DNA of 64,000 bases from Halodesulfovibrio aestuarii DSM 17919 = ATCC 29578. GTDB taxonomy: Bacteria > Desulfobacterota > Desulfovibrionia > Desulfovibrionales > Desulfovibrionaceae. Below the pieces are notes generated by a model that made no database searches, was not told the origin of the DNA, and worked only from the letters and a program-made list of their open reading frames with translations. The stretch spans positions 1-64,000 of the forward strand of contig NZ_ARQF01000021.1 in NCBI RefSeq assembly GCF_000384815.1, written 5' to 3'. Both the position numbers and the translations under genes were made by a program. Each line of letters opens with the position of its first letter. Positions within the stretch are counted from its first letter, which is position 1. Shown piece after piece: positions 13,030 to 64,000 of this stretch.

Positions 13030-13052
13030 TGCTTACTCCGATACTCTTAAAG

Positions 13053-14240: not shown

Positions 14241-14241
14241 T

Positions 14242-17620: not shown

Positions 17621-18223
17621 ATGATCGCATATCTTGAAGGTAAAATTGCAGAGACAACGGAGCAGAGTGTCATCATCGTTACAGAGGGCGGTGTTGGGTA
17701 CGAAGTCCGTTTGCCTGCCCATACGATGAATCGTGTCCCTGCCAAGGGTGGCGATATTGCAGTCTACGTCTACACGGTCGTTCGTGAAGATGCACTGGAA
17801 TTGTACGGTTTTGAGTCATGGGACGAGCGCCAGATGTATACCACTTTGATTTCTATATCGAAAGTTGGTGGTAAAACAGCGCTGGGCATCTTATCTGTAT
17901 ATCGTCCGGATGATCTGCGCCGTATTGTTTTTGAGGAAGATATTAACGCCTTGACGCAGGTTTCCGGTATTGGCAAGAAAGGGGCACAGCATATTTTTCT
18001 TGAGTTAAAGTATAAGCTTAAAGTGGACGAAATGCCTGTTGTATCCGGTAAGGGTGAGGTTCCAGCAACCAGTGTGTACCGTGATGCTTTAGACGGCCTT
18101 GCCAACCTTGGTTACGGCGAAGATGAAGCCGCACCACTGCTGAAAACTATTTTGAAAAATGAGCCGGATCTTGACGTGGGTAGTGCTCTTCGAAGTGCGC
18201 TTAAAGCTCTTGCAAAGGGATAG
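17621..18223 (+). CDS. ruvA: Holliday junction DNA helicase subunit RuvA
   Basis: Tetrameric junction-binding protein that loads Ruv[10 protein letters not shown] at the N-terminus and [11 protein letters not shown] belong to the OB domain; the helix-hairpin-helix region has [12 protein letters not shown] and [18 protein letters not shown]; the C-terminal three-helix domain that touches RuvB includes [16 protein letters not shown]. 200 residues, normal. The ATG lacks a clear ribosome site. The ruvB start follows two bases after the stop, so the two genes are coupled. Confidence 0.96.
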
Positions 18224-18225
18224 GA

Positions 18226-45930: not shown

Positions 45931-47385
45931 GTGGGGGCAGACGTAGTATTTATTGCATCTGAAATGTTTCCTTTTTCTAAAACAGGTGGTCTTGGTGATG
46001 TGTTGGGTGCGTTACCTTTGGCTTTACATAATAAAGGAATTAACACAGCGGTTATAACTCCATTTTACGGCAGAATAGGTACCGCTGAGTACGATATTCG
46101 TCTTGCATGGTCAGATCTTCAGGTTGGGTATCCATGGGAGCCTATTACTGCTGATGTGTATCAAGCCGATTATAAAGGGATGCATGTCTATTTTATTCAC
46201 CGTAGTGAATATTTCGACAGGCGTTTTTATTATTGTGATCATCGGGGAGATTTTTTTGATAATGCAGAGCGCTTTATCTTTTTTAACAGGGCTGCGCAAA
46301 GCTTGATGGAACGGTTTGAAAACGCACCGCAAATTATTCATGCGCACGATTGGCAGGCGGCGCTTTCGCCTGCCTATCTTCATTACTCACGTATGAGTGA
46401 CCCGTTCTGGGAAGATACTCGCTCCGTCTTTACTATTCATAATTTAGCCTTTCAGGGGCGCTTTGCTTCCCGTTTGTTCGAGAATTGCGGGCTTCCTCCA
46501 TCTGCATGGTCGATGCATGGAGTTGAGTTTTATGGTGATTTTAATTTTATGAAAGCGGGAATTTCGTATGCGGATAAAATCACAACTGTTTCTCCAAATT
46601 ATTCTAAAGAGATATTAACGCGTCAGTTTGGTTGTGATCTGCACAATGTTTTGATGGGACGAAAAGACCGTTTGCATGGGATTTTGAACGGTGCTGATTA
46701 TGGAGTTTGGAATCCGGAAGAGAATAAATATCTGCCTAAGACCTATACCAGCAATAATGTCAGGGGAAAACGTGCGTGTAAAAGTTGTTTGATAGAAGAA
46801 CTTGGCCTCGATTCTGCGCTCAAGAAGCGTCCGATGTTTGGCTTTATCGGGCGGCTTCGTGAGCAGAAAGGGGTAAACATGCTGATAGATGTTATTCCTC
46901 AACTTATGGAAAAAAACGTAGGACTGGTTGTGCTTGGTGAAGGTGATCTGGAACGGGAAGCCACTCTTCTTAACTTCATGGAAACGTATCCCAAACATAT
47001 GTGCACGATTGTGGATTACACGGAAGAGCTGGCACATAAAATACAAGCAGCTTCGGATATTTTCCTTATGCCTTCCACCTATGAACCGTGCGGGTTAACA
47101 CAGTTGTATGCCTTGCGGTTTGGGACTGTGCCTGTTGCAAGTGCTGTTGGCGGATTGCATGATACTATTGTTTCGTGGCCGCATCCACATGCGACAGGAT
47201 TCACCTTTGAGAATATAAACAGCGGAGCATTTATAGATTCGATTACAGATGCCATAGATGTATGGGAAAATAATCCTCGTGAGTTTCGTAGAATTATTGG
47301 ACGAGCCATGGCAGAGGAATTCTCTTGGGACAGCTCTGCAGATGAGTATGCAGCTTTGTACAAAGAACTTGGTTTACGCATGTAA
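45931..47385 (+). CDS. glgA: glycogen synthase (ADP-glucose type)
   Basis: Transfers glucose from ADP-glucose to growing glucan. 484 residues of GT5 type: [13 protein letters not shown] near the start (ADP-glucose binding), [21 protein letters not shown], the second domain [12 protein letters not shown], and [24 protein letters not shown] with the catalytic Glu. GTG start with GAGGAG six to seven bases upstream. glgB follows 24 bases on. Confidence 0.95.
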
Positions 47386-47409
47386 CTGTAGAGAACCGTG
47401 GAGCATATA

Positions 47410-49332
47410 ATGAGGGGTACTTTGAAAAGCGTTCCAGCATTTTTTGAGCCGTTCGATTTGCATTTATTCGGAGAAGGGACACATTGGCATTTATACCGGT
47501 TTCTTGGCGCGCACCCTGCCGAGATGGATGGTAAGAAAGGCTATCGTTTTGCGGTGTGGGCACCCAATGCACGCGAAGTACACGTGGCCGGTGACTTTAA
47601 TAGATGGCATTTTAGAGAACTTCCCTTGTATCCCGTGGGAGTCTCGGGTGTCTGGGCTGCGTTCATTGCTGGCGTTGAGAAAGGAGAGCTATACAAATAC
47701 AGTATTGTAGGTAGTGATGGGCGGGATGTATATAAAGCAGACCCTCTGGCTTTTTATTGTGAACTGCGCCCCGGTATTGCCTCCCGTACTTGGGATTTAG
47801 ATAACCATACATGGACAGATGATGTATGGATGGAAGCCCGTCGTCAGCAGGGGCCTCCACTTGATAAGCCCATTTCCATTTATGAAGTACATCTTGGCTC
47901 CTGGTGTCGTGATCATGATCCGGAAAGCAACGGATTCCTTCGATATGGGAAACTTGCGGAACTGCTTATTGAGTACGTAAAAGACATGGGGTTTACCCAT
48001 GTTGAATTACTCCCTGTAGCGGAGCATCCTCTTGATGAATCGTGGGGATATCAAACCAGTAATTATTTTGCTCCCACATCACGTCATGGCACGCCTGAAG
48101 AGTTTAAGGGTTTTGTTGATGCCTTACATAACGCAGGTATCGGCGTTTTTCTTGATTGGGTGCCAGCGCACTTCCCTAAAGATGACTGGTGTCTAGGGCG
48201 GTTTGACGGCAGTGCCCTTTACGAACATTTAGACCCACAGTTAGGCGAGCACCCCGACTGGGGAACGTACATATTTAATTACGGACGACATGAGGTTCGT
48301 AATTTTCTGTTCGCAAATGCTCTTTATTGGTTGCATGAATTTCATATAGACGGGCTTCGTATAGATGCCGTCGCTTCTATGCTGTATCTTGATTACTCCC
48401 GAAAGGAAGGGCAGTGGCGCCCGAATAAATACGGTGGGCGTGAAAATCTGGATGCCGTAGATTTTTTACGTGAACTTAATCGCGTTGCGCACGAGCAGTT
48501 TCCCGGTGTGGTCATGATCGCAGAAGAGTCTACTTCGTGGCCGGGCGTCTCTCGTCCCCTCTATACAGGCGGGCTCGGCTTTACCTTCAAATGGAATATG
48601 GGTTGGATGAGCGATAGTCTCAGCTACTTTTCAACAGATCCAATTTATCGAAGTTACAATCATAACAGTCTCACCTTCAGCATGCTCTATGCCTTTAGTG
48701 AGAACTTTGTACTCCCGCTTTCCCACGATGAAGTCGTACACGGAAAAGGAACGATACTTAGTAAAATGAGCGGTGATGTATGGCAAAAGCAAGCAAATCT
48801 TCGGCTTCTGTACTCGTATATGTGGGCTCATCCCGGTAAAAAAATGATTTTTATGGGCAGTGAGTTCGGGCAGTGGAACGAATGGAATCCTCGTGAAGAG
48901 CTTGATTGGTGTCTTTTACAGTTTCCGGCACATGATGGCATTCGTGCCCTCGTACGTGATCTGAATCATATGCTCACAACTGAAGAAGCCATGCATAAAG
49001 ATGATTTTAGTTGGACCGGTTTCAAATGGGTCGATTTTTCTGATTATGGTGCATCCATCATCAGTTTTGTTCGTATGGGTGGTGATGGTGCGCCTTTGTT
49101 CTGGATATTTAATTTTACACCTGTAGTGCGGAACCATTATCGTGTTGCCAGTCCCAAAAGTGGCGTTTGGAAAGAAGTGCTTAATAGCGACAGTATGTAT
49201 TATGGTGGATCCAACGTAGGAAATATTGCACCGATCGAAACATGCCCTGACGATTTTGGTGGCGAAGGCTATATAGAACTGACGCTTCCGCCGCTCGGTG
49301 CATTGTGTCTGAAGTATCAAGGGGGGAGATAG
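47410..49332 (+). CDS. glgB: 1,4-alpha-glucan branching enzyme
   Basis: GH13 enzyme that makes alpha-1,6 branches. CBM48 domain near the N-terminus (FAVWAPNAREVHVAGDFNRW), catalytic barrel with GLRIDAVASMLY (nucleophile Asp), VMIAEESTSWPGVS (acid/base Glu), PLSHDEVVHGKG (third Asp), then the C-terminal beta domain. 640 residues from the ATG at 47410 (GGAG seven bases upstream); an in-frame GTG at 47398 is less likely. Forms an operon with glgA. No glgC, glgP or glgX seen in the window. Confidence 0.95.
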   Translation: MRGTLKSVPAFFEPFDLHLFGEGTHWHLYRFLGAHPAEMDGKKGYRFAVWAPNAREVHVAGDFNRWHFRELPLYPVGVSGVWAAFIAGVEKGELYKYSIVGSDGRDVYKADPLAFYCELRPGIASRTWDLDNHTWTDDVWMEARRQQGPPLDKPISIYEVHLGSWCRDHDPESNGFLRYGKLAELLIEYVKDMGFTHVELLPVAEHPLDESWGYQTSNYFAPTSRHGTPEEFKGFVDALHNAGIGVFLDWVPAHFPKDDWCLGRFDGSALYEHLDPQLGEHPDWGTYIFNYGRHEVRNFLFANALYWLHEFHIDGLRIDAVASMLYLDYSRKEGQWRPNKYGGRENLDAVDFLRELNRVAHEQFPGVVMIAEESTSWPGVSRPLYTGGLGFTFKWNMGWMSDSLSYFSTDPIYRSYNHNSLTFSMLYAFSENFVLPLSHDEVVHGKGTILSKMSGDVWQKQANLRLLYSYMWAHPGKKMIFMGSEFGQWNEWNPREELDWCLLQFPAHDGIRALVRDLNHMLTTEEAMHKDDFSWTGFKWVDFSDYGASIISFVRMGGDGAPLFWIFNFTPVVRNHYRVASPKSGVWKEVLNSDSMYYGGSNVGNIAPIETCPDDFGGEGYIELTLPPLGALCLKYQGGR

Positions 49333-50630: not shown

Positions 50631-51269
50631 TTAGACGCCCAAAGCTTCGCGGATTGCTTCGATACCGTGTTCTTCTACATAGCGTGCTACGCGCTGTTTC
50701 TTTTTAGCCGTTTCGTTGTAATGGGCAAGGAAACGATCAAGCAGGTCGAGAGCATCCTCTGTGGTAAGTTTGTCAGCAAGAGTATCGGCGATGCGTGGAC
50801 GGGAACCGGAATTACCACCGATTACCATGGTCCAGCCGCTTTTGCTGCCAATGAAACCAATGTCGCGGATATGGCTTTCGGAACAGCTGATAGGGCAACC
50901 GGAAACGCCAACTTTGATTTTAGCAGCAGTTTTGAGTGTACCGATTTTTTCGTTAAGAGCTTTACCAAGTCCTAAGGCATCGCTCTGTCCCATTTTACAC
51001 CAGTCAGTACCGGGGCAAGCTTGAATATAGTGACCACCAACGCGGAATGGTACTTCTTCAGCAGCATTAGCCATGTCTTCTTCGTTAAGACCTATGAGAG
51101 CAATGCGCTGACCGGAAGTAATTTTAAGAAGAGGTACATCGTACTTGTCTGCTACGTCTGCGAGTTGGCGAAGTTCGTCTGCTGTTACAACACCGGATGG
51201 TGGAGTGAGACGGATCTGGTATGTTTCTTTATCGCGCTGAATAAGTGCGCTTGCAGGTAATGTTGCCAT
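50631..51269 (-). CDS. assimilatory-type siroheme sulfite reductase (small, single subunit)
   Basis: A 212-residue protein with the core of sulfite/nitrite reductases: CPGTDWC (Cys85, Cys91) and GCPISC (Cys125, Cys129) ligate a 4Fe-4S cluster bridged to siroheme. Length matches the short low-spin sulfite reductase reported from Desulfovibrio vulgaris (about 218 residues). Whether its role is assimilation or detoxification of sulfite is open. The ATG at 51269 has GGAG six bases upstream; a TTG four codons further upstream is possible. It is on its own, upstream of a terminator. Confidence 0.93.
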   Translation of the reverse strand: MATLPASALIQRDKETYQIRLTPPSGVVTADELRQLADVADKYDVPLLKITSGQRIALIGLNEEDMANAAEEVPFRVGGHYIQACPGTDWCKMGQSDALGLGKALNEKIGTLKTAAKIKVGVSGCPISCSESHIRDIGFIGSKSGWTMVIGGNSGSRPRIADTLADKLTTEDALDLLDRFLAHYNETAKKKQRVARYVEEHGIEAIREALGV

Positions 51270-51598
51270 GTTTGACTCCAATCTATGATGGTACGTGCAT
51301 AAGTTTACGTTTTGTTTGTAGTAAGGGACTCAAATAGCAAAACAGTTTTGTTTTGTACAAGGGAGAAATAGATAATGAATTTTGTCACGATCTAAAGCTA
51401 ATAATAACAGTATGTTATTTGCATTGTGTTTTGGGGTGCAGCATTATTTTGAAAAGATTGTACCGTTTATAGTACGAAATGGCGCGGAGTCGGGGATTTA
51501 TTTTTTGAGTTGTAGGCTCGACTAGTCGCAGTCAAGAGAACCAACAAAATACAAAAAAAGGCATCGCAATTGCTACTCGTGGAATAAATGTAGACAGA
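51270..51598 (-). promoter_or_regulatory. region upstream of sulfite reductase, with a dyad
   Basis: Gene-free 329 bases. A 7-bp inverted repeat AATAACA-GTA-TGTTATT (51403-51419) lies about 135 bases before the sulfite reductase start. On the minus strand this region separates the phosphatase-YkgJ gene from the reductase. No clear terminator seen for the former; a T-run follows the weak GCAATTGC palindrome near 51567-51574. Confidence 0.4.
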
Positions 51599-52750
51599 CT
51601 ATCTTGCAGCTTTCAAAAAGGAAAAAAGGCGTTGCACGTATTTTCCGGAGAGGACTTCAGGAATGGTGAACATGAGTACTGTATGGTCTGGCAGGGTGCC
51701 TGTCAGGTTTAAGTAGACCTGTGATGATAGATGTTCGAGCGGTGTATGGAGAATATCTTCCCATGTCTTTGCCTCTAACTCCGGAGTAATGCCGGAGAGA
51801 CGACAGCGTAGAGGCCGGTATTCATACAGAAGGCACGTGCCGTTTTGTAGAAGTGGGCAGCGTATGGCTGTCTTGTACAGACAGAACGTGCCGGAAAGCC
51901 CTTCGGCATTTTCTTTTTCGTATCGTACGGCATCAGCGGCGTGTTTGATGATATCGGTACGGACAGTACTTGCAATGGAGGTGTTAAGATGTGTTGCGAG
52001 TGCCAGTGATTCTATAAGCGTGAGAGGCACACATGTGTAACAACACGTATTGTCCAATTTGCCGCACACCGAGTCTGCATGATGCAACTGTAGTTGATCA
52101 TCAATGGTTTCTTGCAGATGATGGTAGTCTGCTAAAAAAGGCGCAAGTGATTCAGCGGTATCCTCACCAAACTCAAGAGTAGGTGTTTTTACTTTAAGCG
52201 GGGCATTTTGTGCTCCATATTTTCGTATGGTACGCCACTGCTTAAAATTCGTTGGTTCAGCCCGCAGTTTGTTCAGCATTTTTGCTGCACGTTTGTGTCC
52301 TAACCCTCTGCGAAGAAGGTAGGCATTAAATACCGTTCCCGTACGCCCGATTCCGTGTCTGCAATGAATGTAAGCATGTTTGCCAAGGAACAATTGCTCA
52401 TCAAGCCAATCGAGGGCTTTGTCGAGTTGTTCCAGTTCCGGTGCTTCTTCGTCTTCAATAGGAAGAAAATAGACCTCAAATCCAGCGTCTTCTTCCAGTC
52501 CGGGCAAATCTTTCATTTCTGCGCACAGGTTAAGAATACAGGATATTTTTTGTTCTTTGATTGCTGCAAAATGTCGTTTTGTGCTGGGCGCAGGGCCAAG
52601 CGCAAGACGTGAGGAAACCCAGTGCACCGGAAAAGTTGAATGATCGGACGCACTGGGAGGCGCCGTATACGTGACGGCTTGCAGCATGCAGGAGGCGATG
52701 TGCGAAGCGCTGGAACGTATGCGAGCAAAAATCGGGCGCGGGTCAATCAA
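51599..52750 (-). CDS. dual-specificity phosphatase fused to YkgJ-like Cys cluster domain
   Basis: A 383-residue fusion. Residues about 45-180 form a dual-specificity (Cys-based) phosphatase with the P-loop HCRHGIGRTG (catalytic Cys130, Arg136) and a general-acid loop near PIEDEEAPEL. Residues about 225-320 hold seven Cys in a YkgJ-like pattern: Cys229, 236, 237, 240 and 298, 306, 316, a likely zinc or iron-sulfur site. The start is TTG at 52750, which overlaps the stop of the dikinase-like gene (TTGA), so the two are coupled. I have not seen this fusion described. The substrate is unknown; it may act on the partner's product. Confidence 0.82.
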   Translation of the reverse strand: MIDPRPIFARIRSSASHIASCMLQAVTYTAPPSASDHSTFPVHWVSSRLALGPAPSTKRHFAAIKEQKISCILNLCAEMKDLPGLEEDAGFEVYFLPIEDEEAPELEQLDKALDWLDEQLFLGKHAYIHCRHGIGRTGTVFNAYLLRRGLGHKRAAKMLNKLRAEPTNFKQWRTIRKYGAQNAPLKVKTPTLEFGEDTAESLAPFLADYHHLQETIDDQLQLHHADSVCGKLDNTCCYTCVPLTLIESLALATHLNTSIASTVRTDIIKHAADAVRYEKENAEGLSGTFCLYKTAIRCPLLQNGTCLLYEYRPLRCRLSGITPELEAKTWEDILHTPLEHLSSQVYLNLTGTLPDHTVLMFTIPEVLSGKYVQRLFSFLKAAR

Positions 52751-55194
52751 TAGGTAAGGCTCCCTAAGTCACGTGTAAATTCTTTTTCAAGGGAATCAAG
52801 GTCACTTGTCTCTTCAAGACGCATGTCGAGCATACGGGTTTTGGCAAGAAGCAAACCGAGCAAGGCAAGACGCTGCTGAATGATATGCTCTTCTTCCATT
52901 CCGTGACGCGCGTTGAGCATGTCCCCTTTGCGTTCAATGGAAAAGTTGTTCTTTGAAAGAATACGCTCAATAAAATCTAACCGTAAGGTACGCTGATGAG
53001 ATTTGCCACCACCACCCATAAATCGGAAGCGGATATAGTTCTGCCTGTCTTTGTCACCGCACATGCAATCCACGACTGAAAAGTGGTAGCCGAAGCGCAT
53101 CATCGCATGCATGTATTTGTCCGAAATAATAGCGTAGCTTGCCAGCAGCGGGGAGTCTTTTGATATGATTCCTGCGCTGACTTTGTCAAAGTGTTCCCAG
53201 TCAAAGTGCGGGAGTGCGTCATGCCATGTGACCAGTTCAGAAGAAAGACCGAACCAGAATGCCCACATAGGAACGGATGCAATGTCGCTTTGTTCTACTT
53301 CCTTTTTGCCGGCGGCTGAATGGAAGAGCCCCTTATCAAGGTTCAGTACATACATACTGAGCGGCAGATGTGTTTGAAGTTTGCGCGAGCCGGAAAGTCC
53401 CCTGCTGGATTTGTCTACAAGAGAGAACATTTCCTCTACGCCTTTTTCATGCACGAACCGTACAAGATCATGGAGAGACTTACAGTATTCCGGGGCAAAC
53501 GACTCAGACTCTGGATCGAGCAACGTCAACCGTGCAATGCGTGGCAGAACTTTGCCAAGGCGAGGGATGACTCCTTGTTGGGGTGCTTCGTTTTCTTGAT
53601 TGCATTCCGGAAGGATGCCGTCGAAGACAGAGCCTGTAGTACCATCTACTGTTACAAGCTGGTCGTTGGTATACCGTGAACATGCATCTGCGACACCACA
53701 AAGTACTGGGACGTTAAATTCGCGCGCAACGGAGGCAAAATGGCTCGCAGCACTGCCGCGCTCTGCGATCACACCGTTCAGTCGATGGATAACCCGGGTC
53801 AGTACCGGCCCCAGTCCCCGTGTCACAAGAATTGTTCCGTGCGGCAGTTCTGTAATGTCCTGACAGTTTGCGACAACGCGCACTTTTCCGCTGGCAATTC
53901 CCATTGAGGCACATTCATGGTTAGTATCAAGTGCGCGTAAATCGTGCGCTGGGCACTCAGTCGGTTGTGTTCGTCTGCTCTGCGGTATCGGTCTGCTTTG
54001 TACAATAAAAATTCTGCTGCGGTGGTCTACAACCCATTCAACATCCTGCGGTTCTCCAAAAAAAGCTTCTAGCTGCTGCGCCTGTGCGGCAATGCGTTTG
54101 AGTGTAGGTGTAGGCACAACACTGTGCGACGGTTTCTCCATAATGCGTGGCTTGGCTGCCTTGCTGATGAAGGTTGTCTGGGCTGTGATAGAGCCGGAAA
54201 CTAACTTTTCGCCAATACCCGAAGTTGCATATACTGCAATTGCAGGTTCATTCAAATGAGCTGCATGTTCAGCAGGTGCGGTTGAGTAGGCAACGCCGGA
54301 GCATACAGCATCTACCATTGGCATAATAAGAACCGCCATCGATGTTTCTGTGTCGGCAAGACCGTTCATAATACGGTACGCAATAGCACGGGGAGTGTAC
54401 TTGGAAGCTACAACTTCTTTCCATGCCTGAATAATATTGGCTGGTGCCACATCAAGGATGGATGAATATTGTCCGGCAAAGGAGGCTACTCCGTCTTCTG
54501 CAACGGCACTGGAACGTACAGCAAGTTTGACGCCGTTTTTACCAAGTTCGAGAGCAGCAATTTCAATCTCATTGGCAATAGGGTCAGGCATATCTGCCTG
54601 TAGAATAAGCTCCTGCATTTCATATGCAAGTTCATCCAGTGTAACGGCATCTGTAAGGGAAATGACACTCAGGCGCTTATCCAGTTCTTCCCGCAGGTCG
54701 TTCGCCTCTATAAAATAGTGGTACGCATGGGCAGAGATAACGCGTGCTGGAAGAAGGTTGATGTCTCTTTCGAAGCTGATGCGTGCAAGGTTTGCCGCCT
54801 TGCCACCTGCAGCTTCGAGCATTTTGGTTGCTTCGGGGAGGGTGAAAACAAACGGTGGCTCAATCCGTGGATTTTCTACACTTACTCCCATGCGAACATA
54901 GAAGTTGAGTTTTGTCGCGTAGTCTTGCAAGTCCATGTATTTCACAGGACTCATAATCTGTAGTTGTTCGATAAGGCTACGGATATCGCGTCCGAGTTCT
55001 TCAGTTAGCCATACCACGCGTGTCCAGTCTGCTTGCTCGCGACCATAGTGGATTTCTTCCAGATCAGCTATGTGCTCCAGACAGCGTTCGTCGAGTTTAA
55101 GGAGTTCTTTGAAGGCATTGTATTTTGTGCGCAAAAGTGTGCCCGGAGCAAATGCCCGGAATGTCCAGTGCTTAAACAGCTCTGTGATAAACAT
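52747..55194 (-). CDS. PEP synthase/PPDK-like protein lacking the PEP barrel
   Basis: An 815-residue protein. Order: helical N-terminal region (1-110), an ATP-grasp domain of the PPDK_N kind (about 115-400, GGKAANLARIS, LAVRSSAVAEDG-x-ASFAGQY, VEWVVD), a mobile phospho-His domain (about 425-505, GERGSAASHF-like, His485 in AERGSAASHF) and a C-terminal ~300 residues I do not recognise. PPS and PPDK have a C-terminal PEP barrel with its own motifs; these are absent. It therefore resembles rifampin phosphotransferase or phenylphosphate synthase in layout: ATP makes phospho-His, and the phosphate goes to an unknown acceptor. AGAGGGA precedes the ATG. It is coupled to the phosphatase-YkgJ gene. Confidence 0.82.
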   Translation of the reverse strand: MFITELFKHWTFRAFAPGTLLRTKYNAFKELLKLDERCLEHIADLEEIHYGREQADWTRVVWLTEELGRDIRSLIEQLQIMSPVKYMDLQDYATKLNFYVRMGVSVENPRIEPPFVFTLPEATKMLEAAGGKAANLARISFERDINLLPARVISAHAYHYFIEANDLREELDKRLSVISLTDAVTLDELAYEMQELILQADMPDPIANEIEIAALELGKNGVKLAVRSSAVAEDGVASFAGQYSSILDVAPANIIQAWKEVVASKYTPRAIAYRIMNGLADTETSMAVLIMPMVDAVCSGVAYSTAPAEHAAHLNEPAIAVYATSGIGEKLVSGSITAQTTFISKAAKPRIMEKPSHSVVPTPTLKRIAAQAQQLEAFFGEPQDVEWVVDHRSRIFIVQSRPIPQSRRTQPTECPAHDLRALDTNHECASMGIASGKVRVVANCQDITELPHGTILVTRGLGPVLTRVIHRLNGVIAERGSAASHFASVAREFNVPVLCGVADACSRYTNDQLVTVDGTTGSVFDGILPECNQENEAPQQGVIPRLGKVLPRIARLTLLDPESESFAPEYCKSLHDLVRFVHEKGVEEMFSLVDKSSRGLSGSRKLQTHLPLSMYVLNLDKGLFHSAAGKKEVEQSDIASVPMWAFWFGLSSELVTWHDALPHFDWEHFDKVSAGIISKDSPLLASYAIISDKYMHAMMRFGYHFSVVDCMCGDKDRQNYIRFRFMGGGGKSHQRTLRLDFIERILSKNNFSIERKGDMLNARHGMEEEHIIQQRLALLGLLLAKTRMLDMRLEETSDLDSLEKEFTRDLGSLTY

Positions 55195-55403: not shown

Positions 55404-55769
55404 TTATACAATTGCAGCGAGTACTTCCTGTACTTTATTTTCCAGTTCCTCTTTATCAATTGGCTTTACACAGTATTCGTTAGCACCAAGTTTGAGAGAT
55501 TCACGAGCGGTTTCCAACGTTGGATACCCTGTAAGCATGATGACCTGTGTTTCGGGTGAGCGTGCTTTGAGCTCTGCCAGAACTTCTACTCCGGTCATTT
55601 TGCGTAGCTTAATGTCTAGAATTGCGAGGTCTGGTGTATCATTCTGGGCAAAGGTCAGGGCTTCATCTTCGTCGGTAAAAACCTGAACGGAATGTCCCTT
55701 GCGCTCTAAAATTCGCTTGATAAGAATGCCTGCGTCGATAACATCATCAAGCACCATGATTTTTGCCAT
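55404..55769 (-). CDS. single-domain response regulator (receiver only)
   Basis: A 121-residue receiver without output domain. Acid pocket D8-D9 in MVLDDV, phosphoacceptor Asp in LAILDIKL (about 52), switch Thr in MLTGYP and Lys in CVKPID. It lies 155 bases downstream of the histidine kinase (55925-57973) on the same strand, and is the probable phosphoacceptor. Output must lie elsewhere, perhaps by binding a partner protein. Confidence 0.94.
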   Translation of the reverse strand: MAKIMVLDDVIDAGILIKRILERKGHSVQVFTDEDEALTFAQNDTPDLAILDIKLRKMTGVEVLAELKARSPETQVIMLTGYPTLETARESLKLGANEYCVKPIDKEELENKVQEVLAAIV

Positions 55770-55924: not shown

Positions 55925-57973
55925 TTATTCGTATCCAATTTCATCTAATGGGAGAACAACTTTAAAGGTTGTTCCCGGTCCCCAGTTTTCTGTGCGGGTA
56001 GCACCATCTTCCAATAATTGTTTAGGAGCCGGACTGATAGCAAAAATTCGTCCGCCATGATCCTTAATAATGCCAAATGATACAGAAAGACCTAGTCCCG
56101 TTCCTTTTCCCACAGGCTTTGTGCTGAAGAATGGGTCAAAAATAGAGTCGATGTCATTTGTTGCTATGCCTGAACCGGAATCCGTAAACCATGCAGAGAT
56201 GGTTCCTTTATTAATATCCAGTTCTGTGCGGATATTGATCACACCGTTATGTCCTATTGCTTCAATAGCATTAGACATAAGGTTCATCCAGACCTGTTTT
56301 AATTGCTCAGGATTTCCGTAAATAATAGGAAGTCTGTCGTCCAGATGCGGAATAATTTTTACATTATCAAGCTTAAAAGCATGCCGTACAAGTTGAACAA
56401 CTTCCATGATGGAGTTGTTGAAGCACATTTCTTTCTTTTCACTTTTTGTCTGGCGTGAAAAATTAAGCAGGTCTGCGACAATCTTACGGCAGAACTTAGC
56501 TTGTTTTTCAACTATGACCAAATCTTTATGTACCTGCTCGTCTTCAGGAAAATCTTCCTGCAAAAGCTGTGAGTATCCGAGGATAATCCCGAGAGGCGTA
56601 TTAATTTCGTGAGCAACACCGCCTGCAAGTTTGCCAATAGATTCAAGTTTTTGTGAATGTATGAGTTGGTTCTGGTAGTCTTTTACATTGGTAATGTCGC
56701 GGGCTGTACCGAGTACCCCGATGGATTCTTTATGTTCATCATGAACAGGTACTTTTAATACGTTAAACCACTTACGGGAACCGTCTTCCAGAACGATGCG
56801 CACCTCGCGGTTAACGGGCTTGCTAGTGCTGATTATCTGCTGTGTTTCTTGAAGAGTATTGGCAGTATTCAGGAGCGATTGAATTTCATACTCTTTTTTG
56901 CCAACAATTTTTTCTTTGGGTTTCTTTACAAATGATGCAAATGCCTGATTGACGGAAATGTATGTGCCGTTCTTGTCTATTAAGGACAACTGATCAGGAC
57001 TGGATTCAAAGATTGTCCGTAAAATCTCCTGCTGCTGGGTCAAATCGTTTTTTGCTTCTTCCAGTTCTGCAATGTGGCCTCGCAATGAAAGAGACATAAC
57101 GTCAAACGTTTCTGCAAGCTCATGAATTTCGTCACCGGAATTTTTAGCAAAAACAGGGCACTCTTCGCAGTTGTTCAAATCCCGTGCAGACTTGTTACTG
57201 CAGTAGTTAGTGCACAGCGTTTCACCAAATTGCCAGCATCTTTGCTCAGTGTTTCCGTACGCAGGGCAGTCCTCTTGGTCGCACTTGTAGATTTCCCAGC
57301 AGTTTCTGTTGAGACCGGATGTCTGATTAAGCTTTAGCTCTCCACGTACAATGCTTTCGGCATATTGTCCGAGCATACCGAGCCGGTAAGTAATCTTGTG
57401 AGCGAACTGTGTTGAGATGGCAAGGCTGATGATAAGGGTGATGCCGGTAACAATAGAGATGGTGAAAATGAGTCCATTAACTACGCTTTGCACCTGACTT
57501 CTGGATAGCCCCAGACGTGCCTGCCCGATAACGAGTCCACCTGCTGTTACTGGTACTGCAAAGTCATAAAATTTATCAGAACCTGTATCGACAAGTTTGA
57601 TGGAGGGCTTTGCATCATCGGTAATGACGTTGGCGTGTTTTAAATCAATCGGAAAACCGTTTGTGAACGTGTGGGCCAGAATTTGGCTATTGCTGTTTAT
57701 GAGAAATGCATACGCAACATCTTTATCGACAGTGCGCAGTTCATCCACCATTTCCTTCATCTGTAAAAGATCGCCGGAAAGCATGGAGCTGGTTGTCCGT
57801 AGCGCAATGTTATCTGCCAGAACTTGTCCGCGCCGTTTAGTTTCGTGAACGAGCGAGTTTGCTGCGATCTGGGTAACCACAACAGCAAGCATAAGTGAAA
57901 GGGAAATGATGATTATACTCATTCCCGCGTTAAGTTTAGTACGAAAACGCATCCTGCTTAATCTATTTAGCAT
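55925..57973 (-). CDS. sensor histidine kinase with two-CW-like Cys-rich domain
   Basis: A 682-residue membrane kinase. Order: two membrane helices (about 14-38 and 172-195) around a periplasmic sensor of about 130 residues, a juxtamembrane Cys-rich module (about 224-275) with CWEIYKC, CPAY, RCWQ, CTNYC, CEECPVF (many Cys spaced like the two-CW domain), a HAMP-like linker, a PAS domain (about 310-430, SSPDQLSLIDKNGTYISVN), a HisKA with VAHEINTPLG and a catalytic domain (NLMSNAIEAI, DSGSGI, GKGTGLGLS). The gene overlaps the upstream lipoprotein gene by 11 bases. It may sense a ligand delivered by that lipoprotein. Confidence 0.92.
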   Translation of the reverse strand: MLNRLSRMRFRTKLNAGMSIIIISLSLMLAVVVTQIAANSLVHETKRRGQVLADNIALRTTSSMLSGDLLQMKEMVDELRTVDKDVAYAFLINSNSQILAHTFTNGFPIDLKHANVITDDAKPSIKLVDTGSDKFYDFAVPVTAGGLVIGQARLGLSRSQVQSVVNGLIFTISIVTGITLIISLAISTQFAHKITYRLGMLGQYAESIVRGELKLNQTSGLNRNCWEIYKCDQEDCPAYGNTEQRCWQFGETLCTNYCSNKSARDLNNCEECPVFAKNSGDEIHELAETFDVMSLSLRGHIAELEEAKNDLTQQQEILRTIFESSPDQLSLIDKNGTYISVNQAFASFVKKPKEKIVGKKEYEIQSLLNTANTLQETQQIISTSKPVNREVRIVLEDGSRKWFNVLKVPVHDEHKESIGVLGTARDITNVKDYQNQLIHSQKLESIGKLAGGVAHEINTPLGIILGYSQLLQEDFPEDEQVHKDLVIVEKQAKFCRKIVADLLNFSRQTKSEKKEMCFNNSIMEVVQLVRHAFKLDNVKIIPHLDDRLPIIYGNPEQLKQVWMNLMSNAIEAIGHNGVINIRTELDINKGTISAWFTDSGSGIATNDIDSIFDPFFSTKPVGKGTGLGLSVSFGIIKDHGGRIFAISPAPKQLLEDGATRTENWGPGTTFKVVLPLDEIGYE

Positions 57974-58955
57974 GGGTCACCCGCTGCGCTGGTAGTAAAG
58001 GTATGGACGGAAATGTTGATGTGATTTTGTCAGCTTCAACTTTCTGAATAAGAGTACGAACAGCATCATAGTCGGAATCTGTGGCCGGAATGATACCGCT
58101 TGTACGTGCGTTTGTAAGAATTGCGGCTTCTGTAGGGTTGTCCATGGATAGCTTGAACATAGCCTCAGCAATCTTTGAAACAATCTCTTTATCCATGCCT
58201 CTTCTGGCAGAATATACCCACCCCGGGTATTCTGGAGTCACTGCCAGTACACGAATGTCCTGCAAGTTTATTTTATCTTTTACGGTGTCGAGTGCGCCTT
58301 CACGAACAGAAGCAACATCACATTTTCCGGCGTAGACCGCGAGTGCGGCTTTTTCCTGTTTGCCACCGGGGCCGGGGGCAAATGCAATTTCACTGAAGTC
58401 ATGGGCGTGTATGCCGTGATCTAAAAAGTATCCAAGCGCATAAAGATAGCCCCCAGCAGAGTGAGGATCTACCGCCATCCAGCGTTTTCCGATTACGTCT
58501 TTAAGTGTTTGAATAGCTTTGTTCTGTGCGTGTACAATAATTTGACCGCGGAATGTGGGACGCCCGTCCGGTTCCTTTATGCGCGCAAACGCGGTTGAGC
58601 CCATCTGAGCTAGCTGGACGTAGACAACGGGGTTAGAGAACGAAATATCAATTTCACCACTCTGCACCATGCGGACATGCTCTGCGAAAGTGTCAGGAAA
58701 GACCTGACGCATGGGCAATCCTGTTTCTTTTGTAAGGTATTGGATGAGTGGATTGTGACGGGCGTAAGAAACTTCGTGTGAATATTGAGGTAAATAAGCG
58801 TAGGTTATTGCAGGTTCCGGAACTGGAACTTTAACAGATTCCCGTTTTGAAAAATCGACTTTGACAACGGGTACGTCTTCACCACACCCTTGTAATAATA
58901 CGGAGGTGCAGACTAGGAATGCTAAAAAAAATACACGCAACGATTGATGTTTCAA
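57963..58955 (-). CDS. PhnD-like phosphonate/phosphate-type substrate-binding lipoprotein
   Basis: A 330-residue lipoprotein. Lipobox LQGC with Cys24, then a PhnD-type periplasmic-binding domain: YAYLPQYSHEV, HNPLIQYLTKETGLPM, DISFSNPVVYVQLAQ, RGQIIVHAQNKAIQTLKDVIGKRW, DPHSAGGYLYALGYFL. The family binds phosphonates and similar anions and often serves transport, but here it is fused in a gene chain with a kinase and a receiver and no ABC permease or ATPase follows. It overlaps the kinase gene by 11 bases. So it is probably the ligand sensor for the kinase. Ligand unknown. Confidence 0.88.
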   Translation of the reverse strand: MKHQSLRVFFLAFLVCTSVLLQGCGEDVPVVKVDFSKRESVKVPVPEPAITYAYLPQYSHEVSYARHNPLIQYLTKETGLPMRQVFPDTFAEHVRMVQSGEIDISFSNPVVYVQLAQMGSTAFARIKEPDGRPTFRGQIIVHAQNKAIQTLKDVIGKRWMAVDPHSAGGYLYALGYFLDHGIHAHDFSEIAFAPGPGGKQEKAALAVYAGKCDVASVREGALDTVKDKINLQDIRVLAVTPEYPGWVYSARRGMDKEIVSKIAEAMFKLSMDNPTEAAILTNARTSGIIPATDSDYDAVRTLIQKVEADKITSTFPSIPLLPAQRVTHAK

Positions 58956-59006: not shown

Positions 59007-59699
59007 TTATCCTGCTGTCGCGGTGTCTTCTTGTGGTTGTTGCATTGCTTCAGTCACCGGAGCAGATGTGTTAAGCTCGTCCCATGATTTGATTTGGTTG
59101 ATAAGCTCAGCATCTTCTTCGCGCATAGCTTCGATATTGCGAAGGAAAGGAATATATTTACGTGTCTTATACAATGTATAACGTAAAGCAATATAGCTGG
59201 TAAGAAGCACAAATGCATATCCCAAAGACACCGTGGTAGAAGATATAAAATCTGTACTTAGGTTTGTAAGGCTGAACTTGTCAAAGTCAACAGAGAGCAT
59301 AGGAAAGCTCACAATGTCAACACCGGTGAAGCGGGTCTGCATCCAGCCAAGAGCAAAAGGAACTGGCCATAAGGAAACCGCGAAAAAAGCGGCTTGCGCG
59401 AAGAATACTTTACCGAAGTATTCGTTTGCCCAAGTATTGGCGGCCTTAAAGTTAGCTTTGTCTTTTTGCTTGATGGCTTCAATAGAGAGGTTGTGCATGC
59501 GTACCATCTTCGCGTTGAGCTTTGCATAGTAGGCTCTGTTAACATGATAAATGAAGATGGAAGAAATTTCTCCTGCAAAAACGCACCAGAGACCTAACAC
59601 GATAGAACCCATCCAAACTGCCATCTCCGGATTACTGATCCAGCGGTAGGGGGCAATAAAGAAGGGATCGAGTGCGAAAAAAATACTCTGCATATCCAT
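59007..59699 (-). CDS. inner-membrane protein, unknown (EMC3/DUF106-like topology)
   Basis: A 230-residue protein with three membrane segments (about 30-50, 100-118, 158-185) and a charged helical loop between the first two (IEAIKQKDKANFKAANTWANEYF). This order is like DUF106 and Oxa1/EMC3 insertase-type proteins, but I see no definite motif. The tail is acidic and Pro/Gln rich. The gene lies after the TauE/SafE gene on the same strand, separated by a terminator-like pair of hairpins, so it may be only partly co-transcribed. Confidence 0.65.
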   Translation of the reverse strand: MDMQSIFFALDPFFIAPYRWISNPEMAVWMGSIVLGLWCVFAGEISSIFIYHVNRAYYAKLNAKMVRMHNLSIEAIKQKDKANFKAANTWANEYFGKVFFAQAAFFAVSLWPVPFALGWMQTRFTGVDIVSFPMLSVDFDKFSLTNLSTDFISSTTVSLGYAFVLLTSYIALRYTLYKTRKYIPFLRNIEAMREEDAELINQIKSWDELNTSAPVTEAMQQPQEDTATAG

Positions 59700-59808: not shown

Positions 59809-60972
59809 CTAGAATGGAGGGAGAAGGCTCATTCCAAGGAAGCCTTTAGATGCGTAACGGATACCAACGTAGAAGGCGAGGAAGATGAAGAGGCGTTTGA
59901 GCCATACTTCCGGGATGTACTTGGAGGTACGTGGGCCGATAAAGGAACCTACGAGTACACCAAGGAGTTCTACGCCGATGAGAGGCCAGAATACTGGGGT
60001 GTCTTTAACTACCATGTAAGTGAAGATAGAGGTGGTCATACCGACGAGTACTGCCAGTGCAGAAGTACCAGCAACGAGGTACATAGGAAGACCGGCAACA
60101 CTTGTAAGGAATGGTACCAGAAGGAAGCCGCCGCCTACACCGAGGAAGGAAGCAAGACCAGCGATAACAAAACCGCCACATACAGGTACGAGTGGGTTAA
60201 AGGAGAATTCAACACCGTAGAAGGTGAATACGCATTTGGTTGGAGAGAAAGAAACTACTTTTACACCAAGTGCGGAAGTATCTACAGCAGAGCCGGAGCG
60301 TTCTTCTTTAATAGTGGATTCAAAAGCGCGTGCTGCTTCTTTAGCCTGTTTTTTGTTAGCCTGACCACGCGGGGTGGTTTCGTAAAGAAGGTAGCAGCCC
60401 AAGAAGAGTACGAAGAGGCCGAAGTAGCCGATGTACGCTTTAAGGGAGATCTGGCCTGCAGTGAGCCAAGGAATAAGGTAAGAACCTAAAATGGAGCCGG
60501 TTGCGAGGGAAAGACCCAACGGCAGTACAAGGCGACCCATTTTGTAGTAGTTGAAAGAAGACATGCCGGCTGAAGTACCAACAAGCCACTGGTTAGAAAC
60601 ACGGATGGAGTCTGTTACCAGTTTGTTGAGAACAGGAGACTGTTTTTTAAAGCTGGATGCGTAGTTACCGAATCCGAAGATGGTAATATGACCAACACCA
60701 GCCATGATGCCGCCGAATGCGCCAACAGTGGAGAAAATCCAACCAACCCAGATCGCCCATAAGAAGCCGATCACGAGGTTAACAGATGGTGCGCCCGGAA
60801 TGCCTAAGAAGCCGGTAGCAGCAGAATTATTGATTTCGCCAATGCCAGTACCTTTTGGGGTAGCGTTAATTGCATCAGAAAGACGGTCAGCCAGTGCTGG
60901 CTGAGAAAAAACAAGCAGAATAGCTGCGGCGAGTAGGGTAAGGCTTACCCAGTTACGTCTGTTGGAAAACAC
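59809..60972 (-). CDS. TauE/SafE family membrane exporter
   Basis: A 387-residue membrane protein of the TauE/SafE (DUF81) family, which moves sulfite, sulfonates or similar anions. About eight helices in two repeats, the second with GFVIAGLASFLGVGGGFLLVPFL and PLIGVELLGVLVGSFIGPRTS. A signal-like segment or first helix starts the protein (TLLAAAILLVFSQPALA). GTG at 60972 is chosen: GAGGAGG lies five bases upstream, whereas the ATG at 61002 is preceded by an anti-SD-like CCTCCT. A 9-bp hairpin (61007-61030) lies between the DUF169 gene and this one. Confidence 0.9.
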   Translation of the reverse strand: MFSNRRNWVSLTLLAAAILLVFSQPALADRLSDAINATPKGTGIGEINNSAATGFLGIPGAPSVNLVIGFLWAIWVGWIFSTVGAFGGIMAGVGHITIFGFGNYASSFKKQSPVLNKLVTDSIRVSNQWLVGTSAGMSSFNYYKMGRLVLPLGLSLATGSILGSYLIPWLTAGQISLKAYIGYFGLFVLFLGCYLLYETTPRGQANKKQAKEAARAFESTIKEERSGSAVDTSALGVKVVSFSPTKCVFTFYGVEFSFNPLVPVCGGFVIAGLASFLGVGGGFLLVPFLTSVAGLPMYLVAGTSALAVLVGMTTSIFTYMVVKDTPVFWPLIGVELLGVLVGSFIGPRTSKYIPEVWLKRLFIFLAFYVGIRYASKGFLGMSLLPPF

Positions 60973-61006
60973 GTGTACCTCCTCACGTAAATTGCGTTCC
61001 ATAGGA

Positions 61007-61046: not shown

Positions 61047-61823
61047 TTATTTAGATTTCTTGAAGATGATGAGTGGACAGTTTTTGCATACGTCCTGACC
61101 AGGGAAGCCGTCGCCAGGTTTGGTGATGGAAGAACTGCCAAGCTCTTCGATACGTTCGAGAAGACGCTCGTATGTCGCGATCATCTTTTCGCCCGGAATC
61201 ATAACGTTGATTTCACCGCGTTCTGTTTTACCTGCGTTGTAGCTACCGGAGCATGCAGGAACCATGTTGAATTCATTAGCAACATGAGAGAATACGGAGC
61301 CACCACATGCAGAAGAGTTCATGGTAATTGCAGGGCGGAGCGGATGAGTATCTGTAGCTGCCATGTAATCAACAGCAAGGTGGTATGCCTGCATGTTATC
61401 TACATAGAAATGAACAACGTCTGGAGTCTCAGTTGCGTTGGCAAGCGGCATAACAGCCATACCAACCATACCTTCAGGCATCTGGGACTTTGTTTCTACA
61501 AAACGCTTTGCCTGTTCAGGATTGCGAGTGTATTTTGCGTGGCTTTTTACTTCTGCTTCATCAAGACCTTTCCAGCCGAAGCTGTAATGAGCATTGGAGC
61601 AGGAGAGCATTTCTTTAGTGGCGTATACATTCTGGCCTTTCATGCGTGCTGCAATTTCCCACTGACAGAAAGTCATTGGCTTAACCGGCACATGTACTTC
61701 GTTTTCTTCGAGGTACTTGTCTGCTTCTGCCTGATCGTAGAAATATTTAATTGCGATCGGGTAGTGGTAAAGGCGCATTTCGCGCATCAAAGTTGCTTGC
61801 ATTTCTTTAAAATCTACGGACAT
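61047..61823 (-). CDS. DUF169 family protein
   Basis: A 258-residue protein of the DUF169 family, cytosolic, common in sulfate reducers and methanogens and of unknown function. Two blocks seen: YHYPIAIKYF near residue 20, and NSSACGGSVFSHVANEFNMVPACSGSYNAG with Cys residues, which could bind a cofactor. The C-terminus ends CKNCPLIIFKKSK, so a CKNC pair is near the end. GGGAGAAG lies before the ATG. It leads a unit with TauE/SafE. A perfect HcpR-like operator lies about 190 bases upstream. A role in sulfite or organosulfur handling is inferred from the partner. Confidence 0.88.
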   Translation of the reverse strand: MSVDFKEMQATLMREMRLYHYPIAIKYFYDQAEADKYLEENEVHVPVKPMTFCQWEIAARMKGQNVYATKEMLSCSNAHYSFGWKGLDEAEVKSHAKYTRNPEQAKRFVETKSQMPEGMVGMAVMPLANATETPDVVHFYVDNMQAYHLAVDYMAATDTHPLRPAITMNSSACGGSVFSHVANEFNMVPACSGSYNAGKTERGEINVMIPGEKMIATYERLLERIEELGSSSITKPGDGFPGQDVCKNCPLIIFKKSK

Positions 61824-62258
61824 GATTCTTCTCCCGTTTTTTTATGTGAAGATCCAGTCAGTTCACCAAATGTTGGTGTACGAGCTCATTGCTTTCTGAA
61901 GCTGGAATTATCAATGAGGCATATAGCCAGCAATAAAAACTGAAATAAAGAATTAAGTCACATTAATTCACAAGCAAAGTGCTTATTTTGGGAGTATTAC
62001 GGTAAAACTTTGTGAATTAAATCACAAATAAATATAAAATTAACATTAAATCAGATAATTAGATTGTATTATTGATATATGAATATATGTTTATAGGAAT
62101 GCTTTTGAGGTGTTTTTCCACGTAAAGTGCATGCTAACTTTTGTACAAGGAGTCTGGGTTGTTCGCTTTTTCGTAGCAGTGCAATCCCCCCAATACAGTT
62201 CCTCATTTGCTGTTTTATCTATATTAATAGGGGGATTAAGTCTGACGCGTGAGGCAAA
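61824..62258. promoter_or_regulatory. 435-base region upstream of DUF169 unit
   Basis: Between the DUF169 start and the MscS gene end. AT-rich with the HcpR-like site at 62009-62028 and a half-site TTGTGA at 61967-61973 on the minus strand. No ORF supported. Confidence 0.5.
62009..62028 (-). promoter_or_regulatory. HcpR-like operator before DUF169-tauE/safE
   Basis: TTTGTGAATTAAATCACAAA, a perfect palindrome around N6 with TTGTGA-N6-TCACAA at its core, the consensus reported for HcpR of Desulfovibrio. Centre about 195 bases before the DUF169 start. The site fits other CRP/FNR proteins as well. Confidence 0.8.
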
Positions 62259-64000
62259 TTATTTTTTGGGTACCTTGGTTAATGGCGTTGACGGGCCACT
62301 CGGAGGCCGTTTGCTTTGGGAGCCTTCCGGTGGATAGTCAAGGCTGTCTCTAAGTTCTGCCAGCCGTTCTTCGGCAAAATCAGGGAAAGGCAATTGATCC
62401 TTTGAGCGCCACTCTTGAACTTCGGCTTCAGCTTGTTGGCCTTGTTCTTTGTTAATGCCTTCGTCACGACAGGTATAGATAGTTTGTGAAGGGAAGGCGA
62501 AGCCGCTACCGGATTCATTTATGATGTCTTCTATGCGCAACAGAATATCTTCTTGAATAGCAAGAAATGTGTTCTGGTCCTGACAGTAAAAGTAAGCGAA
62601 TATAAGAATGTCTTTGGAAAACGCACCGTAACCGGTAAACCGGACGCGGGCAGGGTCAGGTGAAATCATTGGGTGGCTTAAGAGCAGTTCACGCAGCTTG
62701 ACTAGCACCCAGCGCATTTGTTCTGGTGTAGTTTCGTAACGTAATTGAAGAACTGTCTTGAACAATCGTTGGTCGCGTAATTGAAAATTATCTAAATGCA
62801 TTTCAGAGAAGTCTGCATTTGGTACAGTAATAACTGTTCGCTCCAAAGAACGGATGCGTGTCGAAATTAACCCGATGTGTTCTACCGTACCAAGTTGATC
62901 ACCATAACGACAGAAATCACCTACTTTGACCGGTTTATTAAAAAGCAGAATCAGACTGCCTATGATGTTTGCAAAAGTCTGTTTAGCAGCCAACGCAACA
63001 GCCAGACCTCCAACACCGAATCCAGCCAGCAGCGGGAGCATATCAATACCAAGTCGCTGACCTCCTTTTATAATAATCATGGCACCGATCAGAGCACCGA
63101 CGACTCGTGACCCTAGCCTGAGTATGGTTGCATTGATACTCTGAGGGGGAATTTGCGGTGAGGAGATTATTGTTTCCGCTATAGCTTTGCAGAAGGCAAA
63201 GGCTGCCCAAGCGGAAACTATGATCATGAGTGACTTGCCACCGCCAAAGACGACAGTAAGAACATCACCTGTAAGGTTGATATCTTCATCCAAAAAAACA
63301 ACAAACACGTGTATGGTGATCATTATTATGATGGGAACCAAAAGGCGCAGCCAGTTCTTGAGCGGTTTTTCTTTTGATTTTGCAGGCAGCCAGATGAATT
63401 TGAAGGAAGTATAGGTTACAAAAAATATTATTGTCAGGCAGAGCGCTAAGGCTACCCACTGCCAAAGAGTCTGCTCTCCATAAAGTTTTTTAAATGACTC
63501 TGGCAGACTGCTGATTATGCCGCTCAGGAAATGAGCCTGAGGGACCAGAATGCCGGGTGTTGATATGTAGAATTTGTAAAACCCCTTACTTTGCTTGGAG
63601 GGCAGATAGTCTTCGGGAGATGCTCCTGCAAGATAGTTCGGACGGTATGGATGATTCTTGATCTGTGCATAGAAGTCCTTAAGGCGAGCCACAGTCTCTG
63701 CGCTAAAAAGAAATTGCCCTTGTTTTGCACCTTCGCTAATTTCTACAATTTCAATTTCGGTATTCGGAAATCGCCAGTGATACTGGTATGCTTTTCCAGA
63801 ACTTTCTTTATGCAAGGCTAGTTGTGCTGCCACCATAACAGCATCAGGGATGAAATCTTCCGGTGGAAGCGGCATGCGGTCGATTATCTCTTTTAGTAAT
63901 AATACTGATTCAATCCCGACGTCCTTACGGTGCTCTTCAGGAACTTTACGCAAATCTAATGTGGCAATGGCTCGTTCAAAAAGATCTTCCGCCGCCTCCT
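62259..64000 (-). CDS. MscS family mechanosensitive channel, 5' end outside window
   Basis: The reading frame is open to the window edge, so the first codon is unseen (the TTG at 63953 is only an internal candidate). About 580 residues visible. Long soluble N-terminal domain (periplasmic), a first membrane segment near the middle (LALCLTIIFFVTYTSF), several more helices, the pore helix GVGGLAVALAAKQTFANIIGSLILLF and the beta domain QLGTVEHIGLISTRIRS and TVITVPNADF. The C-terminus carries a Pro/Ser-rich tail. This is the large type, with N-terminal extension, opening on hypo-osmotic shock. Confidence 0.9.
   Translation of the reverse strand, partial: EAAEDLFERAIATLDLRKVPEEHRKDVGIESVLLLKEIIDRMPLPPEDFIPDAVMVAAQLALHKESSGKAYQYHWRFPNTEIEIVEISEGAKQGQFLFSAETVARLKDFYAQIKNHPYRPNYLAGASPEDYLPSKQSKGFYKFYISTPGILVPQAHFLSGIISSLPESFKKLYGEQTLWQWVALALCLTIIFFVTYTSFKFIWLPAKSKEKPLKNWLRLLVPIIIMITIHVFVVFLDEDINLTGDVLTVVFGGGKSLMIIVSAWAAFAFCKAIAETIISSPQIPPQSINATILRLGSRVVGALIGAMIIIKGGQRLGIDMLPLLAGFGVGGLAVALAAKQTFANIIGSLILLFNKPVKVGDFCRYGDQLGTVEHIGLISTRIRSLERTVITVPNADFSEMHLDNFQLRDQRLFKTVLQLRYETTPEQMRWVLVKLRELLLSHPMISPDPARVRFTGYGAFSKDILIFAYFYCQDQNTFLAIQEDILLRIEDIINESGSGFAFPSQTIYTCRDEGINKEQGQQAEAEVQEWRSKDQLPFPDFAEERLAELRDSLDYPPEGSQSKRPPSGPSTPLTKVPKK

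Follow-up and report, generated by a model that had tools for sequence, protein, structure and literature searches.

In the stretch of Halodesulfovibrio aestuarii DSM 17919 = ATCC 29578 analyzed here (contig NZ_ARQF01000021.1, positions 1 to 64,000; the whole 64,000 nucleotides are called the window), the gene for an 815-residue dikinase-like protein and the gene for a Cys-based phosphatase that follows it form a real evolutionary unit, associated far beyond chance, and are the tail of an eight-gene operon that is conserved in relatives and encodes a TauE-family permease. The kinase and the phosphatase probably act in one pathway with this permease. We favor, tentatively and with slightly less than an even chance of being right, a reading in which this is a two-component-controlled anion-transport operon and the dikinase/phosphatase pair is its output end, turning a sulfur-oxyanion TauE permease on and off. 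A first-pass annotation made from the sequence alone had considered only the pair; the pair has held up as a unit, but its operon, with the TauE permease, a PhnD-like protein, a histidine kinase and a receiver, had been missed.

The dikinase-like gene (52747..55194, minus strand, ATG start) and the phosphatase gene (51599..52750, minus strand, 383 residues, TTG start) overlap at a TTGA (52747..52750, minus strand) in which the TTG start occupies 52750-52748 and the TGA stop 52749-52747, as had been annotated and as a check of the sequence confirmed. This overlap is confined to close relatives. Records of named close relatives in Halodesulfovibrio match at 89-90% identity, in keeping with the genus. 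Within Halodesulfovibrio, nine of ten genomes carry both genes, adjacent to each other, and the tenth (G002) has neither orthologue. At the family level the two genes occur in exactly the same 60 of 119 genomes; they are adjacent on one strand in 53 of the 60, at distances of -1 to +338 bp that leave out the stop codon, and in one of the seven genomes where they are not adjacent the locus is interrupted by a contig end. Family orthologues were taken as the high-scoring class, set by eye from score tables (roughly at least 220 bits for the phosphatase; at least 460 bits, or two neighboring pieces summing to that, for the dikinase), leaving out of the count one genus with longer dikinase-like frames and a phosphatase without the Cys domain (G018, G058, G082, G100 and G111). 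Across the phylum, reading of score tables rather than a script gave an orthologue of the phosphatase fusion in 22 of 247 sampled genomes, all 22 of which also hold a top-scoring dikinase C-terminal domain, mostly adjacent. In addition, a Syntrophobacteraceae metagenome-assembled genome (L171) contains a natural fusion, a single 1252-residue open reading frame that joins dikinase, phosphatase and Cys-rich YkgJ-like part with no stop and lies downstream of genes for a receiver, a kinase and a binding protein, although this is a single assembly and an assembly error is possible. A second candidate fusion (L134) was not used, its phosphatase spanning two frames, for which a frameshift is the likelier explanation. 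Co-occurrence, adjacency and the fusion uphold the kinase-phosphatase coupling that had been proposed, and the genes are not routinely apart.

The 815-residue protein is a member of the dikinase superfamily and is not a phosphoenolpyruvate (PEP) synthase. It consists of a helical N-terminus (residues 1-110), an ATP-grasp domain (113-412), a phospho-His domain (about 420-530) and a C-terminal domain (about 540-815), and the searches made returned no family or PDB match for the first and last of these. Pfam placed PPDK_N (PF01326) on residues 128-412 (E 5.8e-63) and the PEP-utilisers mobile domain (PF00391), which holds His485, on residues 451-521 (E 7.5e-19), and matched no family to residues 522-815. 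In an alignment of 63 orthologues from Desulfovibrionales and other Desulfobacterota, K132, R227, E386, Q399, R401 and H485 are invariant, and we take these residues, from what is known of the family, to serve in ATP binding and in phosphoryl transfer to the His. The domain matches and invariant residues thus agree with the ATP-grasp/phospho-His protein of the first-pass annotation, which had also called the last 300 residues unrecognized; about 280 C-terminal residues are indeed without a match, and so are residues 1-110, which it had not flagged. The AlphaFold model has a mean predicted local distance difference test score (pLDDT) of 85.9, and its matches among known structures, namely rifampin phosphotransferase, PEP synthase and pyruvate phosphate dikinase (PPDK), span only residues 112-547 or so. 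NCBIfam cut-offs were missed both for the PEP synthase equivalogs (251.3 bits versus 598 and 239 versus 739.75) and for rifampin phosphotransferase (164.5 bits versus 999). The N-terminus (window 54865-55194) is conserved and all-helical and could be a receiver-docking site.

Folded alone, the C-terminal domain (pLDDT 80.9) is a mixed alpha/beta structure rather than a barrel, with helices, a beta hairpin and four strands that lie side by side. Foldseek found nothing for it at E 0.001 or better, the best VIA match (Z 7.6 over 72 residues of a ferredoxin-like piece) lies within the tool's stated noise, and a profile search of the PDB with the domain alignment gave two matches, at E 0.61 and 0.85, and no barrel. 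A PEP/pyruvate barrel was thus found neither by Pfam nor among PDB matches nor in the secondary structure of the model, as the first-pass annotation had expected. Because the barrel is lacking, the acceptor is unlikely to be pyruvate, and the earlier suggestion of another acceptor stands. Conservation in the domain is strict: H575, D576, R579, H582, E583, FGYH 701-704, N719, GGG 727-729, R738, D758 and D790 are invariant in the same 63 orthologues.

In the phosphatase, a dual-specificity phosphatase (DSP) domain (residues 45-180, with Cys130) is joined to a YkgJ-like domain in which six Cys, spread over 229-316, are conserved. The DSP domain (PF00782) scores 44.6 bits against a cut-off of 33.5 and carries the active-site motif HCRHGIGRTG; D100, H129, C130 and R136 are invariant in 46 of 46 orthologues, which thus keep the CX5R signature and the general-acid Asp, and an extra Cys inside the domain, Cys76, is invariant as well. 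Its closest solved relatives are small bacterial and eukaryotic DSPs. The match to the YkgJ-like (CxxCxxCC) family PF03692 is weak (E 0.0088; 17.1 bits, below the Pfam cut-off of 23), and short proteins that align to this region alone are also retrieved by the phosphatase query. The earlier annotation of a phosphatase fused to a YkgJ-like, Cys-rich part holds apart from its count of seven Cys: there are eight between 229 and 316, six of which (229, 236, 237, 298, 306 and 316) are kept in 45-46 of the 46 orthologues and two of which (240 and 290) are not. The genus set aside above (g10; L145 = G082:C25, L151-L153) has dikinase-like frames of about 1060-1450 open residues and, for the most part at a different locus, a phosphatase match that lacks the Cys domain; it offers a natural comparison for the contribution of that domain.

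All genes of the operon lie on the minus strand. Directly upstream of the dikinase is a receiver-only response regulator of 121 residues (55404..55769), preceded by a sensor histidine kinase (55925..57973) with sCache_3, PAS, HisKA and HATPase domains and a weak HAMP match, and by a 330-residue periplasmic anion-binding protein of the PhnD/PtxB type (57963..58955), whose gene overlaps that of the histidine kinase. Further upstream are a 230-residue membrane protein with no family above cut-off (59007..59699; position of DVU0250 in the Desulfovibrio cluster discussed below), the TauE/SafE-family permease of 397 residues (59809..61002; position of DVU0251 / Dde_0598) and, as the first gene, a DUF169 protein (61047..61823; position of Dde_0597). 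Synteny was assessed in 76 orthologue loci, each count being restricted to loci with enough flank. The phosphatase is immediately downstream of the dikinase in 60 of 66 loci and the receiver orthologue directly upstream in 49 of 66, and nearby are the histidine kinase in 40/47, the binding protein in 31/42 and TauE in 21/37. In some Desulfobulbales (L080, L082, L084) TauE, the membrane protein and the dikinase stand together without orthologous sensor genes or phosphatase; in these genomes the phosphatase is encoded elsewhere, and two of them have it next to a further dikinase and a further TauE (L173, L174).

Genes for dikinases that carry this C-terminal domain are found next to TauE permease genes, a family-wide rule that is new as far as we have searched. 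In the ten Halodesulfovibrio genomes a TauE gene lies at most 7 kb from the dikinase in 22 of 25 clusters, whereas about one would be expected from the 91 TauE genes present; of the three exceptions, one has TauE at 8.9 kb and two are matches that do not reach across the C-terminal domain. The paralogue clusters have other membrane partners (Alph_Pro_TM or no assigned family), often with receivers or kinases nearby, and clusters of the Desulfobulbales type combine dikinase and TauE in another gene order. Outside the genus the association is looser, with TauE within search reach in 8 of 20 sampled paralogue loci (L151-L170), probably an underestimate since the search was by tblastn with three seeds. 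Two paralogue clusters of the window's own genome are worth recording. One (L142, C20:322000-341000; 8419-18797) has TauE, an Alph_Pro_TM protein and three tandem dikinase-like genes (873, 958 and 911 residues) with a receiver-like stretch between genes; the middle dikinase has no PPDK_N match at E 0.01 and its ATP-grasp may be degenerate. The other (L143, C15:10000-27000; 7087-12873) has a histidine kinase, a receiver, TauE, a 254-residue protein without assigned family and a dikinase, and this second paralogue cluster also occurs in G002, the genome without the window's pair. TauE/TSUP proteins are abundant in sulfate reducers and their function is not predictable (PMC5840216); a dikinase family that travels with TauE offers a handle on it.

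The operon corresponds to the 'nitrate cluster' DVU0251-DVU0245 / Dde_0597-Dde_0605 of Desulfovibrio (Korte et al. 2014, PMC4001038). The order DUF169-TauE-hypothetical-PtxB-histidine kinase-response regulator-PPDK-DSP equals that of its Table 3, with the same eight families in the same order and DUF169 in G20 only, and we infer orthology with the D. vulgaris (DvH) and G20 clusters from gene content and order rather than from sequence comparison. The pairing, which the first-pass annotation did not know from the literature, is therefore in print as DVU0246/DVU0245. In G20 at 150 mM nitrate, insertion in every listed cluster gene increased fitness (dikinase +3.41, phosphatase +2.08), and in DvH gains on insertion were seen for TauE (+11.44), the receiver (+9.14), the binding protein (+3.86) and the dikinase (+2.18). 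Isolated D. vulgaris mutants of the dikinase, receiver, membrane protein and TauE grew equally with or without 100 mM nitrate, and phosphatase mutants, both transposon and deletion, were inhibited by nitrate like the control. The phosphatase insertion had a pool fitness of -6.04 in DvH; since a neutral mutant may score strongly negative where a few resistant strains dominate the pool, this value should be read as 'not resistant' and not as 'harmed'. The nitrate phenotype arises without nitrate consumption, and G20 cluster mutants were reported to be mildly sick on thiosulfate. The authors suggested a leaky thiosulfate transporter and gave no interpretation of the kinase-phosphatase pair; the paper supplies phenotypes and annotations, and the parts of it consulted contain no discussion of the operator, of the YkgJ fusion, of an absent PEP barrel, of antagonism between kinase and phosphatase or of paralogues associated with TauE.

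The mechanism we favor for the window's operon is built on gene linkage, conservation of catalytic residues, the predicted ATP-grasp/His-domain fold and the published phenotypes of the syntenic genes. To judge from their families, the PhnD-type periplasmic protein and the histidine kinase would sense an external anion, and the histidine kinase would then phosphorylate the stand-alone receiver. Because the receiver has no DNA-binding output, it would act by binding the product of the neighboring dikinase-like gene, a contact to which synteny and the mutant phenotype point. Using ATP, the dikinase would phosphorylate its own His485, consistent with the invariant residues and the fold, and pass the phosphate to an acceptor held by the C-terminal domain. 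This phosphorylation would activate the TauE-family permease together with its membrane partner, or be required by them, and the two would carry a sulfur oxyanion and also admit nitrate; the Desulfovibrio genetics speak for such a pathway, not for its chemistry. Finally, the phosphatase, whose Cys domain may serve as a gate that responds to metal or redox state, would take the phosphate off and reset the system, so that the two enzymes may place and remove a reversible phosphate mark on a shared target. A more specific version, in which a PEP-synthase-type dikinase with a new C-terminal acceptor domain serves as a two-component effector and, together with the Cys phosphatase, reversibly phosphorylates the TauE permease or its membrane partner to gate anion uptake, we consider rather unlikely to be right in full.

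Several observations weigh against permease control by the pair. The D. vulgaris mutants fit opposite roles of dikinase and phosphatase, but the G20 pooled data do not: there the phosphatase mutant also gained in nitrate (+2.08), and in DvH the receiver still has an effect although the gene for the histidine kinase carries a pseudogene annotation (PMC4001038), so the signal path is not simply linear. The control-like behavior of the phosphatase mutant in D. vulgaris fits an antagonist and a protein with no role in the assay alike. All mutants of the operon could act through lost permease expression rather than lost activation, and transposon insertions may be polar. TauE was not found in 16 of the 37 orthologue loci with enough flank, and no biochemical data on the cluster proteins were found in the literature.

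Among other explanations, a somewhat improbable one is metabolic activation, in which TauE imports or exports a small molecule that the dikinase phosphorylates, in the way that phenylphosphate synthase and rifampin phosphotransferase act on their substrates, and the phosphatase removes excess product. The nearest solved enzymes do phosphorylate small molecules, the conserved polar residues of the C-terminal domain (H575, D576, R579, H582, E583, H704, N719, GGG727-729 and R738) look like a ligand site, and paralogues are repeatedly paired with TauE permeases. However, no catabolic enzyme was seen as a fixed member of the cluster in the synteny loci, and control of the permease explains the phenotype more easily because mutants of sensor, receiver, dikinase and permease share one nitrate phenotype and no nitrate is consumed (PMC4001038). 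That common phenotype of sensor and receiver mutants is also not expected of group translocation, which we regard as quite improbable: TauE, the membrane partner and the dikinase would form an ATP-driven machine that phosphorylates its substrate on entry, like the phosphotransferase system (PTS), which uses PEP. The three are contiguous in sensor-less clusters (L080, L084) and in paralogue clusters, and the phospho-His domain shares the fold of PTS enzyme I, yet neither nitrate nor a sulfur oxyanion is an obvious acceptor of phosphate.

A phosphorelay, which we judge improbable though less so than group translocation, would have the dikinase exchange phosphate with the receiver or histidine kinase and so tune two-component signaling, the Cys phosphatase acting on the chain. 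The swivelling-type phospho-His domain, the position of the receiver-only regulator in 49/66 loci and the receivers beside many paralogues are all in keeping with this, but DSP-type phosphatases act on phosphoesters and not on phospho-Asp, and there are dikinase-TauE pairs with no orthologous receiver adjacent (L080, L082, L084). Finally, plants pair a dikinase with a DSP phosphatase, and genes that we take from their sequences to be glgA (45931-47385) and glgB (47398-49332) lie 2-6 kb from the pair, as would suit phosphorylation and dephosphorylation of glycogen in the manner of glucan water dikinase (GWD) and SEX4 on starch. This idea was dropped as very improbable, since among 30 loci with enough flank just one has glgA/glgB near the pair, and this neighborhood is confined to Halodesulfovibrio.

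Upstream of the operon is a perfect palindrome, TTGTGA-N6-TCACAA (62010..62027, not assigned to a strand), 187 bp before the DUF169 start. The genome has only one other perfect site, about 240 bp before a gene for a methyl-accepting chemotaxis protein (L187 3442-3459; C19:229941-229958). Related loci totaling 1.3 Mb hold 15 sites that deviate at no more than one position, each of them no further than about 710 bp ahead of a gene belonging to this cluster or to its divergent form, and 13 of the 24 clusters with a clear first gene have such a site within about 700 bp upstream. The motif is that predicted upstream of sat and apsAB (PMC545781) and is bound by HcpR1 and shared with Rex (PMC5701242), so that the operon has, by sequence prediction, the same operator as sat/apsAB in the HcpR/Rex regulon of sulfate reduction; resistance to nitrate is also seen in rex mutants (PMC4001038). 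Because the site fits HcpR and Rex alike and sat itself has upstream sites with two mismatches only, we assign it to neither factor. Through this predicted site the operon would be linked to sulfate respiration and to the same nitrate-resistance phenotype. Two neighbors outside the operon may be mentioned: a 216-residue nitrite/sulfite-reductase-like protein (window 50631-51281) that directly follows the phosphatase and accompanies the pair in close relatives alone (1/30 loci), and, upstream of the operon on the same strand, a 564-residue open reading frame (window 62259-63953) that by eye resembles an MscS-type channel.

Besides Korte et al. 2014, nothing useful on the pair was found in the literature covered, which leaves out most subscription journals, and none of these locus tags is mentioned in Price 2014 (PMC4215793). 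The protein families and the cluster itself were known before; none of the papers found has the reading of a permease controlled by kinase and phosphatase, the conserved operator, the fusion, the C-terminal domain or the rule on TauE neighbors. Souring caused by sulfate reducers is countered by dosing with nitrate, and strains that lose this cluster become resistant to it, a published effect that has lacked an explanation since 2014. If a dikinase/phosphatase pair does switch a TauE permease, this would explain the resistance and would give a signaling role to a fold known from metabolism and drug inactivation.

Known systems resemble parts of the pair. Glucan water dikinase with a SEX4/laforin-type DSP also sets a dikinase and a DSP on one target, but its dikinase has the opposite domain order, no carbohydrate-binding module was found in the window's pair, and glycogen genes are not conserved neighbors. 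Phenylphosphate synthase, compared here by description, is a precedent for phosphorylation of the PEP synthase type with an acceptor other than pyruvate, and is split into separate subunits. Rifampin phosphotransferase (PDB 5hv3) is alike in its ATP-grasp and phospho-His fold (Z 37.0 over 396 residues, root-mean-square deviation 3.2) and also lacks the PEP barrel; however, its acceptor-binding domain, the rifampin-binding part, has no match in the dikinase and sits between the ATP-grasp and His domains, and by phmmer its His domain ends the chain, whereas in the dikinase the His domain (451-521) is followed by 290 residues that include the C-terminal domain. PEP synthase and PPDK (PDB 2ols, 8a8e and 1kbl) share with the dikinase the order from ATP-grasp to phospho-His and the catalytic residues, but the dikinase replaces their C-terminal barrel with a matchless domain of about 280 residues and adds an N-terminus of 110.

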